This document shows positions 8,349 to 14,587 of a stretch of 21,045 nt of DNA, piece after piece. This stretch comes from a virus, in the IMG/VR virus record IMGVR_UViG_3300021960_000640, positions 1-21,045 of that record. The stretch is one strand, 5' to 3'. Made by a program: the position numbers and the translations under genes. Under the pieces are notes generated by a model that was not told the origin of the DNA, ran no database searches, and saw only the letters and a list, made by a program, of their open reading frames with translations. Every line of letters starts with the position of its first letter. The stretch's first letter is position 1.

Positions 8349-10136
8349 TCAAACTTCCTTCTGTTTTTGAAGTGCTTGTTGTCTCTTCTTTGCAATCATT
8401 TGATCAAGCATTGTCTTTCTCTTTTGAAGAGCAAGTTCTTGAGGAGTCATAGGTGCTTCTGTTGCTCCTTCACCAAGTCTTCTACCACCGCGTTCTGCAG
8501 TGAGTTTAGCAGCGATTGCCATCTCACGACGCTTCTCTTTTGATCTGCCCTTGAACTGTGGAGCATCAGACTTATAAAAGTCCTTGATGACATCACCCAT
8601 ATCTGCTTTTTTCAGATTGAGTTTTTCATCAACCAATTCACCTTCGGGTTCATAAGAACTATAGATGCCAGACTTCATTCCTCTATACTGCTTTTCCATA
8701 GCAGCAAGGGCAGATTTCTTTTCTCTTCTATCGTTCTGTCTCTTAAGTCTATCTTTAGCTTTTGCCTCAGACCTACCCATGTATCTGTCTACCCTGCGTT
8801 GCATTTGGATAGACTTTTCTTCAATCTGCTCTACTTCTTCCTTACGCATTCTTGCTGCTTTTCTTTCTGCAGCCTTTCTACGCATTTCTGCTTCAGCAGG
8901 ACTTAATCCTTTTGCAGATGCTGCTTTGTGTGCTGCTTCACCAGCAGACTTTTCCTTTGCTTGTTTAGCAGCAAAGTGCTTCTCTAGTGCAGCGGACTTT
9001 TCTTTGTTAGTAACAACTTCAGACTTACCAACCTTTTGAGAAATACCACCAAACTTAGCTCTTCTTGCCTTGCCAGTTGCTACGTTCTCATCAACTAACT
9101 CACCTTCTAATTCATAACTTTCATTTGGATCATCAGATTTTGATGACCACTTACCACCATATTCTTTTGCCATCTGTTTCTTCATTCCTTTGATGGCTTT
9201 CTTTCTGACATTTTTATTAGGGTGGTCAATGACATTATCCAGTGGTCTTCTTCCACTTGGAGCTTCACCCTCTTCTGGATCAACAAATCCCTCACCAATC
9301 TCAACCATTTCAATCAGAGTTCCACCCAATCTCTCAATTGCTTCACCAAGTTTTGGATTGATTTTGATTTTGTTGTTTACTTTTTTCTCTTTGATTGGTT
9401 TAGAATCAATATCATCAGTCATTACTTCAGTAAGATCTTCTCTCCAGTTTGAGAAACCTTCTTTTACTGATTTCTTTTTCTTACCTAAAGACTTACCACC
9501 TTTAGGGTTATTCTTTCCAGATACTCCCCTATTTTCTTCTGCTTCATCATGATCAAATTCATCATCATCCATTGGATCATAATCAGATGACTCTGCCATC
9601 TTTGTTCTAATTCTCTTCTTACCATCAGGAGAAGGGACGAACTCACCCATTCCTTTCTCTTTTGGATCATCCTTATCTACATCGCCATCATTATCAGCAT
9701 CAATTCTCTTGACTGCCTTTGATACTAATTTTTTAATATCACCTGAAGGAACTTCATGAGGAGCATGAACTCCCATTTTAGTAACTTCTGCAAGTTCTCT
9801 TTCCTCTTTCATTCTCTTCTTCATCGCAGCAGAGATTGCTTTACGACGCTTCATTATGTACTGATCATTCTTATCTTTACTGATAGGAACGCCATCATTA
9901 TCTGGATCATCATCCTCTTTTCCAACTGGATCAAGTGCTTCCATTGCTGCCTTTCTCTTCGCCGCAGACTTGGCAAGGAGTCTCTCTTTTGCAGCTTGCT
10001 GTTCATCTTTGGGAATACTGAACATGTTACGATCAGTTTTCAGTCTTTCTTTAGGAGGTTCAACCTTTGCTTCAGCAACCTGCTCTAAGTATACCTTTGA
10101 GATTGCATTCAAAGGATTTTCGGCAATTCCAGACAT
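8349..10136 (-). CDS. Large charged, repeat-bearing protein with EF-hand-like loops; probable virion-associated
   Basis: A 595-aa protein, extremely rich in Lys, Glu, Ala and Asp and mostly helical or disordered. Two Asp-rich 12-residue loops resemble EF-hand/dockerin calcium sites: D77-P-D79-N-D81-G and D146-A-D148-N-D150-G-D-V. The decapeptide YE-x-EGELVDE occurs twice (341-350 and 495-504). Residues 225-240 carry an FSNWREDLTEV segment, and 380-480 is a long Ala/Lys/Arg/Glu helix. No enzyme motif is visible. It lies between a possibly head-targeted nucleotidyltransferase and the 67-aa gene, with a CATAAATA late-promoter-like box 31 bases upstream. I infer a late, virion- or scaffold-associated role, not a proven one. 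Confidence 0.88.
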   Translation of the reverse strand: MSGIAENPLNAISKVYLEQVAEAKVEPPKERLKTDRNMFSIPKDEQQAAKERLLAKSAAKRKAAMEALDPVGKEDDDPDNDGVPISKDKNDQYIMKRRKAISAAMKKRMKEERELAEVTKMGVHAPHEVPSGDIKKLVSKAVKRIDADNDGDVDKDDPKEKGMGEFVPSPDGKKRIRTKMAESSDYDPMDDDEFDHDEAEENRGVSGKNNPKGGKSLGKKKKSVKEGFSNWREDLTEVMTDDIDSKPIKEKKVNNKIKINPKLGEAIERLGGTLIEMVEIGEGFVDPEEGEAPSGRRPLDNVIDHPNKNVRKKAIKGMKKQMAKEYGGKWSSKSDDPNESYELEGELVDENVATGKARRAKFGGISQKVGKSEVVTNKEKSAALEKHFAAKQAKEKSAGEAAHKAASAKGLSPAEAEMRRKAAERKAARMRKEEVEQIEEKSIQMQRRVDRYMGRSEAKAKDRLKRQNDRREKKSALAAMEKQYRGMKSGIYSSYEPEGELVDEKLNLKKADMGDVIKDFYKSDAPQFKGRSKEKRREMAIAAKLTAERGGRRLGEGATEAPMTPQELALQKRKTMLDQMIAKKRQQALQKQKEV

Positions 10137-10147
10137 GTTGATACGAC

Positions 10148-11383
10148 TTACTTTTTAACCTTATACTTATTTATGAAATTTTTGATACTGGTTGTTCCAG
10201 TCGCTGCCATAGCATTTTTAAGATATCCACCAGTTCCTTCAAGAGTGTTTGGTTTACCAGGAACTCTCATACGACGTTCCATTTTCTTCTCAGTATATTC
10301 CATCACGTCTCTAATCCAAGACTTGAACATATACTCTTCTTGAGTAACACAAATAAGATGATTAGTTCCTCTACGAATAATCTTACCAATCAGTCCTGTG
10401 TTCAAATTTTCAACAATATCCCCAAGATTAAAAATCTTATTGTTTACATATTGTTCACGCAAACCTTTTGGATCACACTTTGGTGCAATCTGCCAAAGTT
10501 CAGTAACCTCTTTTTTCTTTGCCTTAATCTTCATCCCTTGACGAACTGCATCAAACAGTGCTTGAGTATCACCATCATCTAATGTCTTTGGTGTTCCTCT
10601 ACGGAATGATTCAAAATCACCATCTACGACTGCCTTACGCATTTTGGATGCAGACATTCCTTCTACACCTTCTGCATCAGCATCACGAACACCAGCAGAA
10701 ATGACACGGATTAAATTAAAATCATAAAGATCTCCATTATACTTCTGTGCAAGATTTTCAAACTCTGCTTGACGATCAGAACCGACAACAATATTCACAT
10801 TTGCATATCCTTCTTCTGCCGCAGTGACAAGGACATTGAAGATGGATCTCATTTCATCATCATTAATAATGTTCTCCTCATAATCAGGGAACATCTTCTT
10901 CATAAACGAAATCTTCATATCTGGATCAAGTGGATTCTTTTTAGAATCTTGAGTTCTTGATGGATAAATTTTGAAATCTCCACCCAGCGATGCTTTCTGT
11001 GCTGCTTTTAGAAGTTTTTCGTGACCAACTGTTGGAGGATTAAAACGACCAAACGCAACAGTCAACGTATCACTCATCATATCAGCATCACCACCTTCAG
11101 GTGCTGCTGGTTTTGCTTTTGGTTTCTCTTCTGGTGCTGCTTTTGGTTTTGCTGGTTCTGCTGCTTGTGGTTTTGCAGCAGCAGGTTTTCCAGTTGGTTC
11201 TGGTTGTCCCTTTGCTTTCTTCTTGTCTACAAATACAAGTTTTCCCTTTTCAGTGGTTGCAACAAAATTTCCACGGGTGTCTAACCAACCGCCGTGACCA
11301 TCACTCTTGAGGTTTAACTTCTTCGCTTGCATAGATGCTTGCGATTGAGTTGCCTCATTTAGAAATTGGAAAAAACTCTTCAT
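10148..11383 (-). CDS. HxGH-type nucleotidyltransferase with capsid-targeting-like N-terminus
   Basis: A 411-aa modular protein. Residues 1-11 (MKSFFQFLNEA) resemble the T4 internal-protein capsid-targeting sequence MKTYQEFIAEA, with an L-N-E/A site of the type cut by the prohead protease gp21. Residues 18-58 form a small Gly/Lys-rich module, and 60-98 a Pro/Ala/Lys linker. The nucleotidyltransferase core (about 105-265) has GRFNPPTVGH at 112-121, GSDRQAEF at 201-208 and the S-x-S-x-x-R motif near 244-249, as in cytidylyl- and NMN-adenylyltransferases. Residues 317-365 (FNLGDIVENLNTGLIGKIIRRGTN) look like an SH3/KOW-type module. Related enzymes are common in marine T4-like phages, but their substrate is uncertain. 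Packaging into the head is my inference. Confidence 0.9.
   Translation of the reverse strand: MKSFFQFLNEATQSQASMQAKKLNLKSDGHGGWLDTRGNFVATTEKGKLVFVDKKKAKGQPEPTGKPAAAKPQAAEPAKPKAAPEEKPKAKPAAPEGGDADMMSDTLTVAFGRFNPPTVGHEKLLKAAQKASLGGDFKIYPSRTQDSKKNPLDPDMKISFMKKMFPDYEENIINDDEMRSIFNVLVTAAEEGYANVNIVVGSDRQAEFENLAQKYNGDLYDFNLIRVISAGVRDADAEGVEGMSASKMRKAVVDGDFESFRRGTPKTLDDGDTQALFDAVRQGMKIKAKKKEVTELWQIAPKCDPKGLREQYVNNKIFNLGDIVENLNTGLIGKIIRRGTNHLICVTQEEYMFKSWIRDVMEYTEKKMERRMRVPGKPNTLEGTGGYLKNAMAATGTTSIKNFINKYKVKK
10168..10175 (-). promoter_or_regulatory. Possible late promoter CATAAATA inside the upstream gene
   Basis: The minus strand reads CATAAATA (7 of 8 to TATAAATA) 31 bases upstream of the 595-aa gene, at a spacing similar to the better late promoters here. 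It is also coding sequence for the end of the 411-aa protein, so chance is possible. Confidence 0.4.
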
Positions 11384-11402: not shown

Positions 11403-11410
11403 TATTTATT
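11403..11410 (-). promoter_or_regulatory. Late promoter AATAAATA for the nucleotidyltransferase operon
   Basis: AATAAATA lies in the short gap between the nuclease gene and the nucleotidyltransferase ATG, 19 bases upstream of that ATG. It matches 7 of 8 positions of the T4 late box, and variants of the form NATAAATA are accepted in T4-like cyanophages. Confidence 0.6.
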
Positions 11411-12810: not shown

Positions 12811-13491
12811 TTAAGACTTAACGATCAACCAAAATCTTCTGTAGTGAGTCCTCAATTCTATTCCATCTGTGGACTCTGAAAAATATTTTTTGTAATTCTT
12901 ATCAGTCCAATCATAAACATTTTGGAGGATTACTTTGTCATGTAGTTTTCCATAGGTGTTCAAATTTTTATGGTCAAAACGTTTAAAACTTGCTCCCAGA
13001 TCAGTGAGAACTTTTTCTACAGATTTTTCAGTGAAGTTAGGATGTAGACAATTGAACTCATCATAGATGTAATCACTTCCAGATGTCCAAAAATCATCCA
13101 TATCATTTTCTGGATTGACAACTGTTTCCAATAACATCATATTAGTATGCTTTAAAGCACATTCCAAATCTTGTTTCCAGTTTTCAATATGATACAAGAC
13201 ACCAAAATGAAGAACCATGTCAAACTTCCTTTTCAGATCATAGTATTCATTTTGATTTAAACATACCAATTCAGCAGGTTTATACAAATTTGGTGTGATG
13301 CTGTTCAGGTGCTCTACTCTAGCATCAGAGAAAACAACATTAGATCCAAGTTTCTGAAATTCGATACCAAAGTCTCCATGACATGCACCAAGTTCCAATA
13401 TTTCTTTTCCTTCAAACCATTCTTTACCTAAAATTTCTAAAACTTTATTATGTCTGTTTTCAAACCACTCTTTGTAAAATTCTAATTTCAC
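12811..13491 (-). CDS. SAM-dependent methyltransferase (class I)
   Basis: From GTG 13491 this encodes 226 aa. Motif I is at 31-42 (ILELGACHGDFG), an acidic residue ends the next strand (FSDAR), and the motif IV-like strand reads FDMVLHFGVLYHI. The GVLYH segment is shared with CmoB/DUF1698-type tRNA methyltransferases and several O-methyltransferases; the C-terminal part is less typical. The frame is open through the upstream tRNA, but those codons are tRNA sequence, so the start must lie after it. GTG is the first plausible codon, 17 bases past the tRNA, with no clear Shine-Dalgarno. It probably shares a transcript with the tRNA. Target could be tRNA, protein, lipid or sugar. Confidence 0.82.
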   Translation of the reverse strand: MKLEFYKEWFENRHNKVLEILGKEWFEGKEILELGACHGDFGIEFQKLGSNVVFSDARVEHLNSITPNLYKPAELVCLNQNEYYDLKRKFDMVLHFGVLYHIENWKQDLECALKHTNMMLLETVVNPENDMDDFWTSGSDYIYDEFNCLHPNFTEKSVEKVLTDLGASFKRFDHKNLNTYGKLHDKVILQNVYDWTDKNYKKYFSESTDGIELRTHYRRFWLIVKS

Positions 13492-13508
13492 AATTTCTAA
13501 AATAAAAA

Positions 13509-13582
13509 TGGAGAATAGGAGACTCGAACTCCTGACATTTTGCTTGCAAAGCAAACGCTACTACCAACTGAGCTAATTCCCC
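13509..13582 (-). tRNA. tRNA-Ala (anticodon TGC)
   Basis: The minus strand folds as a cloverleaf. The acceptor stem is GGGGAAT with ATTCTCC (one G-U) plus discriminator A. The D-arm begins TAGCTCAGTTGG. The anticodon stem TTTGC/GCAAA closes the loop TTTGCAA with anticodon TGC (Ala), and the T-arm contains GTTCGAGTC. No CCA is encoded. The D-stem is slightly imperfect, with an extra T before AGC compared with common tRNA-Ala. A consensus sigma70-like promoter lies just upstream. Confidence 0.95.
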
Positions 13583-13591
13583 AATACAGAT

Positions 13592-13647: not shown

Positions 13648-13845
13648 TTAGTTCTCGTCTCTCAACTCTCTTTTAATCTCATCCTTCAATCTTCTACGCT
13701 CTTCAGCATCTGCGGATCTTTGTCTTTGAGCATCAGCAGAAGATCTAGATTTCTCTTTGAACTTCTGCATCCGATCTCTTTGTCTTTGACGTAGTTGCTG
13801 TCTGCGTTGTTCAATATCTTCAGAGAACTGTTGATAAGTTTTCAT
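13648..13845 (-). CDS. Small basic protein with T4 internal-head-protein-like N-terminus
   Basis: A 65-aa, very basic, helical protein rich in Arg, Gln, Lys, Glu and Asp. It starts MKTYQQFSED, almost the same as the capsid-targeting sequence of T4 internal proteins IPI-IPIII (MKTYQEFIAE). That sequence directs those proteins into the prohead core, from which they are injected with the DNA. The exact gp21 cleavage motif (hydrophobic-x-Glu followed by a small residue) is not evident at the usual place. Its ATG overlaps the stop of the 235-aa gene (TGATG), so the two are co-translated from the late promoter at 14580-14587. It may be an internal or core protein of the head; the link rests on the N-terminus, size and charge. 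Confidence 0.82.
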   Translation of the reverse strand: MKTYQQFSEDIEQRRQQLRQRQRDRMQKFKEKSRSSADAQRQRSADAEERRRLKDEIKRELRDEN

Positions 13846-14552
13846 CAGCGACCCATCTGTTTAGCATACCACTTCTCAAAGTCCTCTCTACGCTTATCAC
13901 CTCTTGGTGGCATAGGAGTTTTTTCTCCACGAACAGGAGCATACTTCTTATCTTCCTTTTCACCCTTCTCTGGGTTACGCTGATAACCTTCATTGTTTAT
14001 TCTTGAAGGACGCTTTTGCCTTTCTGGGTCTTTAGACATCATATCTCTTAGATTTTGAATCGCCTTTTCATCAGCTTCCTTATTCTTTTTCTTCATGTAA
14101 TCACTATTCGCCAAACGATCTTTTGCCGATTTTCCACCCAATCCAAAGATTTCATCAAGAGTGAATTGAGAAACAAGAGCATATGCTTCTTGCTCGGTGT
14201 GTCCTCTCTCAATCAGAGACTCAACCATCTGATCGAGTTCCAGTTCTTCCTTCTTCAGGTTTGCTTTACGATACTTCAGATACTCTCTATCCTTTGTACC
14301 CATGCGACCTTGTGCTTTAGGTCTTTCCTTACCACCAGCAGGATTAGGACCAGTGTTCTTAACAGCACGGGAAGAGTGTGCAGCACCAGATCTCTTGGAA
14401 TCACCAGAGATCATCTTACCAGCATCAGAACGGGAATCTTGATACTCTTTCTCGGACTGACCGTGCTTGCCCTTGTAAAGTTCTTCAATACCCTGTGGAG
14501 CATGAACCTGCTCAAATGCTTCCATCAAACCTCTGTAATTATTAAGATCCAT
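13845..14552 (-). CDS. Charged late protein, 235 aa, possibly head/core associated
   Basis: A 235-aa, Lys/Glu/Asp/Arg-rich protein that looks largely disordered between residues 28-95 and 140-235. A compact helical segment lies at about 100-137 (ELELDQMVESLIERGHTEQEAYALVSQFTLDEIF), which resembles a small UBA-like helical bundle. The N-terminus (MDLNNYRGLMEAFEQVH) recalls the short Y-x-x-LMEA peptides I associate with virion proteins of marine T4-like phages. No catalytic motif is seen. It sits 27 bases after a perfect late promoter and is co-translated with the 65-aa basic protein. A structural, scaffold or packaged role is inferred. Confidence 0.85.
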   Translation of the reverse strand: MDLNNYRGLMEAFEQVHAPQGIEELYKGKHGQSEKEYQDSRSDAGKMISGDSKRSGAAHSSRAVKNTGPNPAGGKERPKAQGRMGTKDREYLKYRKANLKKEELELDQMVESLIERGHTEQEAYALVSQFTLDEIFGLGGKSAKDRLANSDYMKKKNKEADEKAIQNLRDMMSKDPERQKRPSRINNEGYQRNPEKGEKEDKKYAPVRGEKTPMPPRGDKRREDFEKWYAKQMGR

Positions 14553-14579: not shown

Positions 14580-14587
14580 TATTTATA
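14580..14587 (-). promoter_or_regulatory. T4-type late promoter TATAAATA for the 235-aa gene
   Basis: A perfect TATAAATA on the minus strand, 27 bases before the ATG of the 235-aa gene. It begins on the last base of the U-tract of the upstream terminator. Confidence 0.85.

Follow-up and report, generated by a model that had tools for sequence, protein, structure and literature searches.

A 65-codon gene in a marine virus fragment, the product of which begins almost exactly like two internal head proteins of phage T4, raises the question whether that product is carried inside the phage head and, if so, what it does there. The capsid-targeting sequence (CTS) was worked out in T4 and has been used to identify internal proteins in T-even phages. 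The window (the whole stretch of DNA analyzed) is the entire virus record of 21,045 bases and represents part of a genome. Its UvsX shares 94% identity with the UvsX of Synechococcus phage Bellamy and more than 90% with those of other Synechococcus phages, which assigns the window to a Synechococcus T4-like phage.

The 65-aa Gene and Its Neighbors

The gene was confirmed as an ATG-to-stop ORF of 65 codons, MKTYQQFSEDIEQRRQQLRQRQRDRMQKFKEKSRSSADAQRQRSADAEERRRLKDEIKRELRDEN, at the position given in a preliminary description of this DNA (13648–13845); the strand, which that description did not give, is the minus strand, with the gene running from 13845 to 13648. The same description called the protein highly basic. 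This holds for its pI of 10.3 and net charge of +6, but the protein is chiefly very charged, with 20 K/R and 14 D/E residues making up 34 of the 65. T4 IPI, IPII, and IPIII have pI values of 8.9–9.5, and the protein shares with the CTS class the property of being small and basic. The body behind the leader lacks Pro in all 13 aligned homologs and Gly in most of them. Salt bridges at i,i+3/i+4 spacing, an excess of which would suggest a single helix, were not significantly enriched in most family members.

Upstream lies a late gene of 235 aa (13845–14552, minus strand; start MDLNNYRGLMEAFEQV). The two genes overlap in the sequence TGATG, where the stop codon of the 235-aa gene and the start codon of the 65-aa gene share base 13845. 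The 235-aa gene is related to cyanophage genes including S-SCSM1 gp089, which is annotated as a virion protein. A T4-type late promoter, TATAAATA, is located at 14580–14587 (minus strand), 28 bp ahead of the 235-aa gene. All six ATAAATA sequences in the window were found on the coding strand 20–46 bp before a gene start; with the gene list used, such an arrangement would arise by chance with a probability of about 2e-10. In every relative examined that has the upstream gene, the late promoter occupies -26 to -28 relative to that gene, and in loci L009 and L016–L019, which are without it, ATAAATA precedes the 65-aa gene directly, at -26. Judged by these promoters the gene is expressed late, as are those of the CTS class.

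Just downstream is a tRNA-Ala(TGC) gene (13508–13583, minus strand), which likewise follows the 65-aa gene, or what is left of it, in L001, L008, L014, L019, L020, and L021. The listed start of a methyltransferase-like ORF (12811–13554, minus strand) is a TTG within this tRNA gene, and the true start must therefore be further in. Farther along the minus strand is a cytidylyltransferase/NMNAT-like gene (10148–11383; PHROG 395) with a leader of the same kind, MKSFFQFLNEA, and a late promoter core ATAAATA at 11403–11409. Its S-SCSM1 counterpart, gp281 (MKSFLQFLKEA), is annotated as a virion protein. The late gene that follows (595 aa, 8349–10136, minus strand; start MSGIAENPLNAISKVYLEQVAE; ATAAATA at 10168–10174) resembles the virion protein gp280 of S-SCSM1, a likeness of position and N-terminus and not of formal alignment. 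The S-SCSM1 gene order around tRNA-Ala resembles that of the window, and the annotated virion proteins gp089, gp282, gp281 (NMNAT), gp280, and gp279 agree with the proteome of that phage (PMC9602691).

The Leader Compared With T4 Internal Proteins

In the T4 record both IPII, MKTYQEFIAEARVG, and IPIII, MKTYQEFIAEASVV, begin MKTYQEFIAEA, while IPI begins MKTFKEFTST. The leader of the 65-aa protein, MKTYQQFSED (codons 1–10, 13816–13845, minus strand), matches IPII and IPIII at positions 1–5 and 7. The match of the first seven residues except one, as originally described, is thus correct (six of seven), the only change being E6 to Q. In IPIII residues 4 and 7 serve targeting, while residues 8 and 10 serve processing (PMC9026906). 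The aromatic residue at position 4 and the Phe at position 7 are both present in MKTYQQF, as Tyr4 and Phe7, whereas the T4 processing residues are replaced by Ser8 and Asp10. An Asp at position 10 blocks IPIII processing in T4 and leaves targeting intact (PMC9026906). With Tyr4 and Phe7 but Ser8 and Asp10, the 65-aa protein is predicted to be targeted but not to be cleaved at the position used in IPIII.

The prohead protease site I/L-x-E reads S8 E9 D10 here, and no [LI]xE occurs in the 65-aa protein; because of this and of Asp10, cleavage may not happen at all. The sequence F-S-E9|D10 may serve as an alternative site, with the candidate cleavage point after Glu9 (codon 9, 13819–13821, minus strand), but cleavage is uncertain. 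Of the 47 leader families among the matches listed (see below), 15 resemble the 65-aa protein in having Glu at position 9.

A tblastn search of 50,697 phage records (isolated phages; E 10, low-complexity filtering on) gave no match to the 65-aa protein, and there was no family match, the best PHROG having an E of 0.16. Neither search revealed homology of the body to IPI, IPII, or IPIII. As far as the sequences tell, the protein is not a homolog of IPI–III and belongs with the CTS-bearing internal proteins.

Conservation and Loss of the Gene

An IMG/VR scan identified 21 loci, 19 of them with a full-length relative. The leader MKTYQQFS served as one of six seeds, so that the search favors relatives that kept the leader, although the leaderless L008 was still found. 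The leader was kept in 18 of the 19 full-length relatives. Residues M1, K2, T3, Q6, F7, E9, and D10 were invariant across 13 aligned sequences, and position 4 was Y or F. The median pairwise dN/dS was 0.21, corresponding to purifying selection. A small ORF could arise by chance in a window where 140 ORFs of at least 40 aa can be read, and so could a match to MKTYQEF. The 19 full-length homologs, the dN/dS of 0.21, and the conserved late promoter led us to reject both, and we give them a negligible probability. The 65-aa gene is real.

In L008, the one exception, another N-terminal piece has been joined to the front of the body; this piece starts MLTFREFYQICEG (an MLTFREF leader) and has its own late promoter, CATAAATAA. 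The inner leader has decayed to VKSVNKIEED, and the body is well conserved. This is the pattern expected if the leader acts only N-terminally and independently of the body.

The gene was not found at the corresponding place in S-SCSM1 or Bellamy. In L020 (4992–5051) and L021 (89–148) a stretch of 19 codons (QGSRKRLKDEIKRELRDEN, stop) directly before tRNA-Ala is the trace of a lost gene. The gene is thus dispensable and variable in presence, which is a further property of the CTS class.

The Leader on Other Late Genes

The internal-protein reading had been said to fail if the leader were missing from other late genes of related genomes. We searched IMG/VR for TATAAATA, followed by 8–38 bases and ATG-K-T-[FY]-[KQ]-[EKQ]-F, a pattern that fixes residues 1–7 only. 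The leader was found directly behind the late promoter in at least 120 contig stretches, while a scrambled residue order gave 0. The matches listed comprise 47 protein families without detectable mutual similarity, of 19 to 341 aa (compared after removal of the first 10 residues; E 1e-3, single linkage; a small number of the shortest are perhaps interrupted reading frames). Glu occurs at position 9 or 10 in 81% of the families among the matches listed compared to a background of 12%, and was not fixed by the search. Among the same 47 families Ile is commonest at position 8 (16/47) and Ala at position 11 (15/47), which reproduces the T4 site I-x-E|A. When TFKEF[LF]E was searched without any condition on position or promoter, 47 of 82 distinct occurrences were at a protein start. 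A C-terminal form of the motif was rejected as unconvincing, since only 8 of these 82 were within 8 residues of the stop.

On this sequence evidence the leader is a portable N-terminal signal of general use, attached to late proteins that are unrelated to one another, and the T4-type leader appears to mark numerous late proteins in cyanophages and phages related to them. A search of the open literature found no such statement.

The largest cargo family (e.g., L031:3428–3985, minus strand) accounts for 23 of the 120 stretches among the matches listed, and one scanned representative had a match to the S-AdoMet lyase family in Pfam (E 2e-8). Phage enzymes that degrade SAM are known to counteract restriction (discussed in PMC10665884), and the SAM lyase of this family is likely to be a capsid-borne anti-restriction enzyme. 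One cargo matches the PHROG 'internal virion protein' (E 6e-102), while most have no known function. Two leader-bearing genes, L087:2046–2741 and L099:5058–6080 (both minus strand), encode one kinase-like protein and one with a P-loop (GGGASGKG), the latter perhaps being the polynucleotide-kinase PHROG match; both may possibly be injected enzymes.

A second N-terminal class (start like MDSKELRGLMEAYSEVY; MDxKELRGLMEAYxxVY), represented in the window by the 235-aa gene (13845–14552, minus strand) and elsewhere by L159–L252, was also found behind late promoters in at least 120 stretches, with 0 for the scramble. Most of its members form one mosaic family of modular proteins, with gp089 as the S-SCSM1 relative found among virion proteins. 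It was rejected as a portable leader, because nearly all belong to that one family by single linkage.

Two further observations concern CTS-like motifs elsewhere in a protein. The small virion protein gp279 of S-SCSM1 (L144:41626–41835), which like L304 is of the MPAVSKAQQRFMG kind, has a C-terminal end, KRTFKEFLEYIE, that is a CTS-like motif. S-CREM2 gp12 (L149:7704–10313, minus strand), which is annotated Cas9/Csn1 and present in virions, carries LRFASFMAEA close to the N-terminus and terminates in KTFRDFLN.

Leader Proteins in Cyanophage Virions

According to the mass spectrometry data published in PMC10665884, 52 of the 219 proteins of S-CREM2 are in the virion. The motif M[KRQN].?[FYL]xxFx(1-2)E occurs in S-CREM2 in gp6 (SAM hydrolase), gp13, gp14 (APH-like kinase), gp15, gp136, and gp154 (cytidylyltransferase). 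The virion list contains every one of these six (Fisher p 1.4e-4, or p 2.6e-6 for the 28 proteins without a structural classification), with a motif partly tuned after some of these N-termini had been seen; the plain [FY]xxFx(1-2)E gives 5 of 6 (p 0.003). For the virion enzymes the authors consider contamination possible in their account of the proteome (PMC10665884), but the shared leader makes this less likely. The virion-protein section of PMC10665884 mentions no leader.

One of the two S-SCSM1 leader genes, gp030, has no virion-protein annotation. This would fit an N-terminal element with another role, e.g., in translation or scaffold assembly, on a protein that is not in the mature virion. 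However, the leader is conserved at the amino acid level including the Glu at the T4 cleavage position, the leader proteins of S-CREM2 are all in virions, and the leader of L008 was replaced and not merely lost. We therefore regard such a role as improbable. With good confidence, a confidence that concerns location and excludes the role of the body, we interpret the 65-aa protein as a late internal head protein targeted to the capsid by a T4-type CTS. The original proposal of an internal-protein equivalent in a marine T4-like phage is in agreement with the leader, the late promoter, and the leader on unrelated late genes. The protein is probably injected with the DNA.

In this interpretation of a targeted head protein, the late sigma factor would transcribe the gene from TATAAATA, and the first nine or ten residues would act as the CTS, with Tyr4 and Phe7 presumably binding the prohead core. 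Core binding would enclose the protein before DNA packaging. The prohead protease would then probably cut after Glu9 (F-S-E|D), leaving a charged basic body of 56 residues. This body is predicted to sit among the packaged DNA, presumably in contact with it, and would be released together with the DNA when the phage infects.

The Role of the Body

The composition of the body would suit a structural protein of the prohead core or a protein condensing DNA, like gp67/gp68 or the basic internal proteins that contact DNA. It belongs to a small protein with a high pI and charges on more than half of its residues, it is under purifying selection, and similar proteins with a leader and a charged body exist, e.g., L049. 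T4 internal proteins contact DNA phosphates (PMC3012670). Since the gene is optional, the protein is not an essential core component, which counts against the core version, and we give the structural explanation somewhat less than an even chance.

The optional presence of the gene, missing in S-SCSM1 and Bellamy and left as a remnant in L020 and L021, fits an injected effector that blocks a host nuclease or other defense or reprograms the host, like IPI–III. Each of these three T4 proteins inhibits a different GmrSD restriction enzyme (PMC12373910), and for this reason an anti-defense role is possible. The commonest cargo of the leader among the matches listed is a SAM lyase, and S-CREM2 virions contain a SAM hydrolase that has a leader of this type. 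However, the sequence of the body is repetitive and charged and matches no family, and its dN/dS is low and not raised, unlike that of an arms-race protein. We consider the effector explanation possible but less probable. Low dN/dS and a charged body without family fit DNA packing at least as well as anti-defense, and packing or charge neutralization of DNA is slightly likelier for the body than a specific anti-defense role.

The most far-reaching interpretation takes the CTS as a general injection signal of T4-like phages in natural waters, serving dozens of unrelated cargo families (SAM lyase the commonest among the matches listed), and the 65-aa protein as an injected effector against cyanobacterial defense. 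Taken as a whole we find this rather unlikely. The wider result on the leader is of more interest than the 65-aa protein itself. If the leader acts alike in cyanophages, a simple N-terminal motif predicts which of their many uncharacterized late proteins enter the head, probably to be injected, and accounts for the presence of SAM hydrolase, kinase, and cytidylyltransferase in cyanophage virions. The question of what marine phages inject would thereby become a list of testable candidates.

Comparison With Known Systems

The 65-aa protein resembles T4 IPII and IPIII in the MKTYQ-F leader with Y4 and F7, in late expression, in the small basic body, and in being encoded by an optional gene. It differs from them in having S8 and D10 where they have I8 and E10, and its body is shorter and without detectable relation to theirs. 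With IPI it shares a leader of the form MKT[FY]xxF, and the IPI class consists of injected restriction inhibitors. Whereas IPI has a compact alpha/beta fold (PMC9026906), the body here is a charged stretch of 55 residues with no detectable relation to it. Among cyanophage virion enzymes, comparable leaders are found in S-CREM2 gp6 (MKDFDSFLEE), gp14 (VKRFDAFLTEE), and gp154 (MKNFSSFLTEA) and in S-SCSM1 gp281, and a late promoter (TATAAATA or ATAAATA) precedes gp6, gp154, and gp281. These leader proteins of S-CREM2 and S-SCSM1 are enzymes, while the protein in the window is small and charged.
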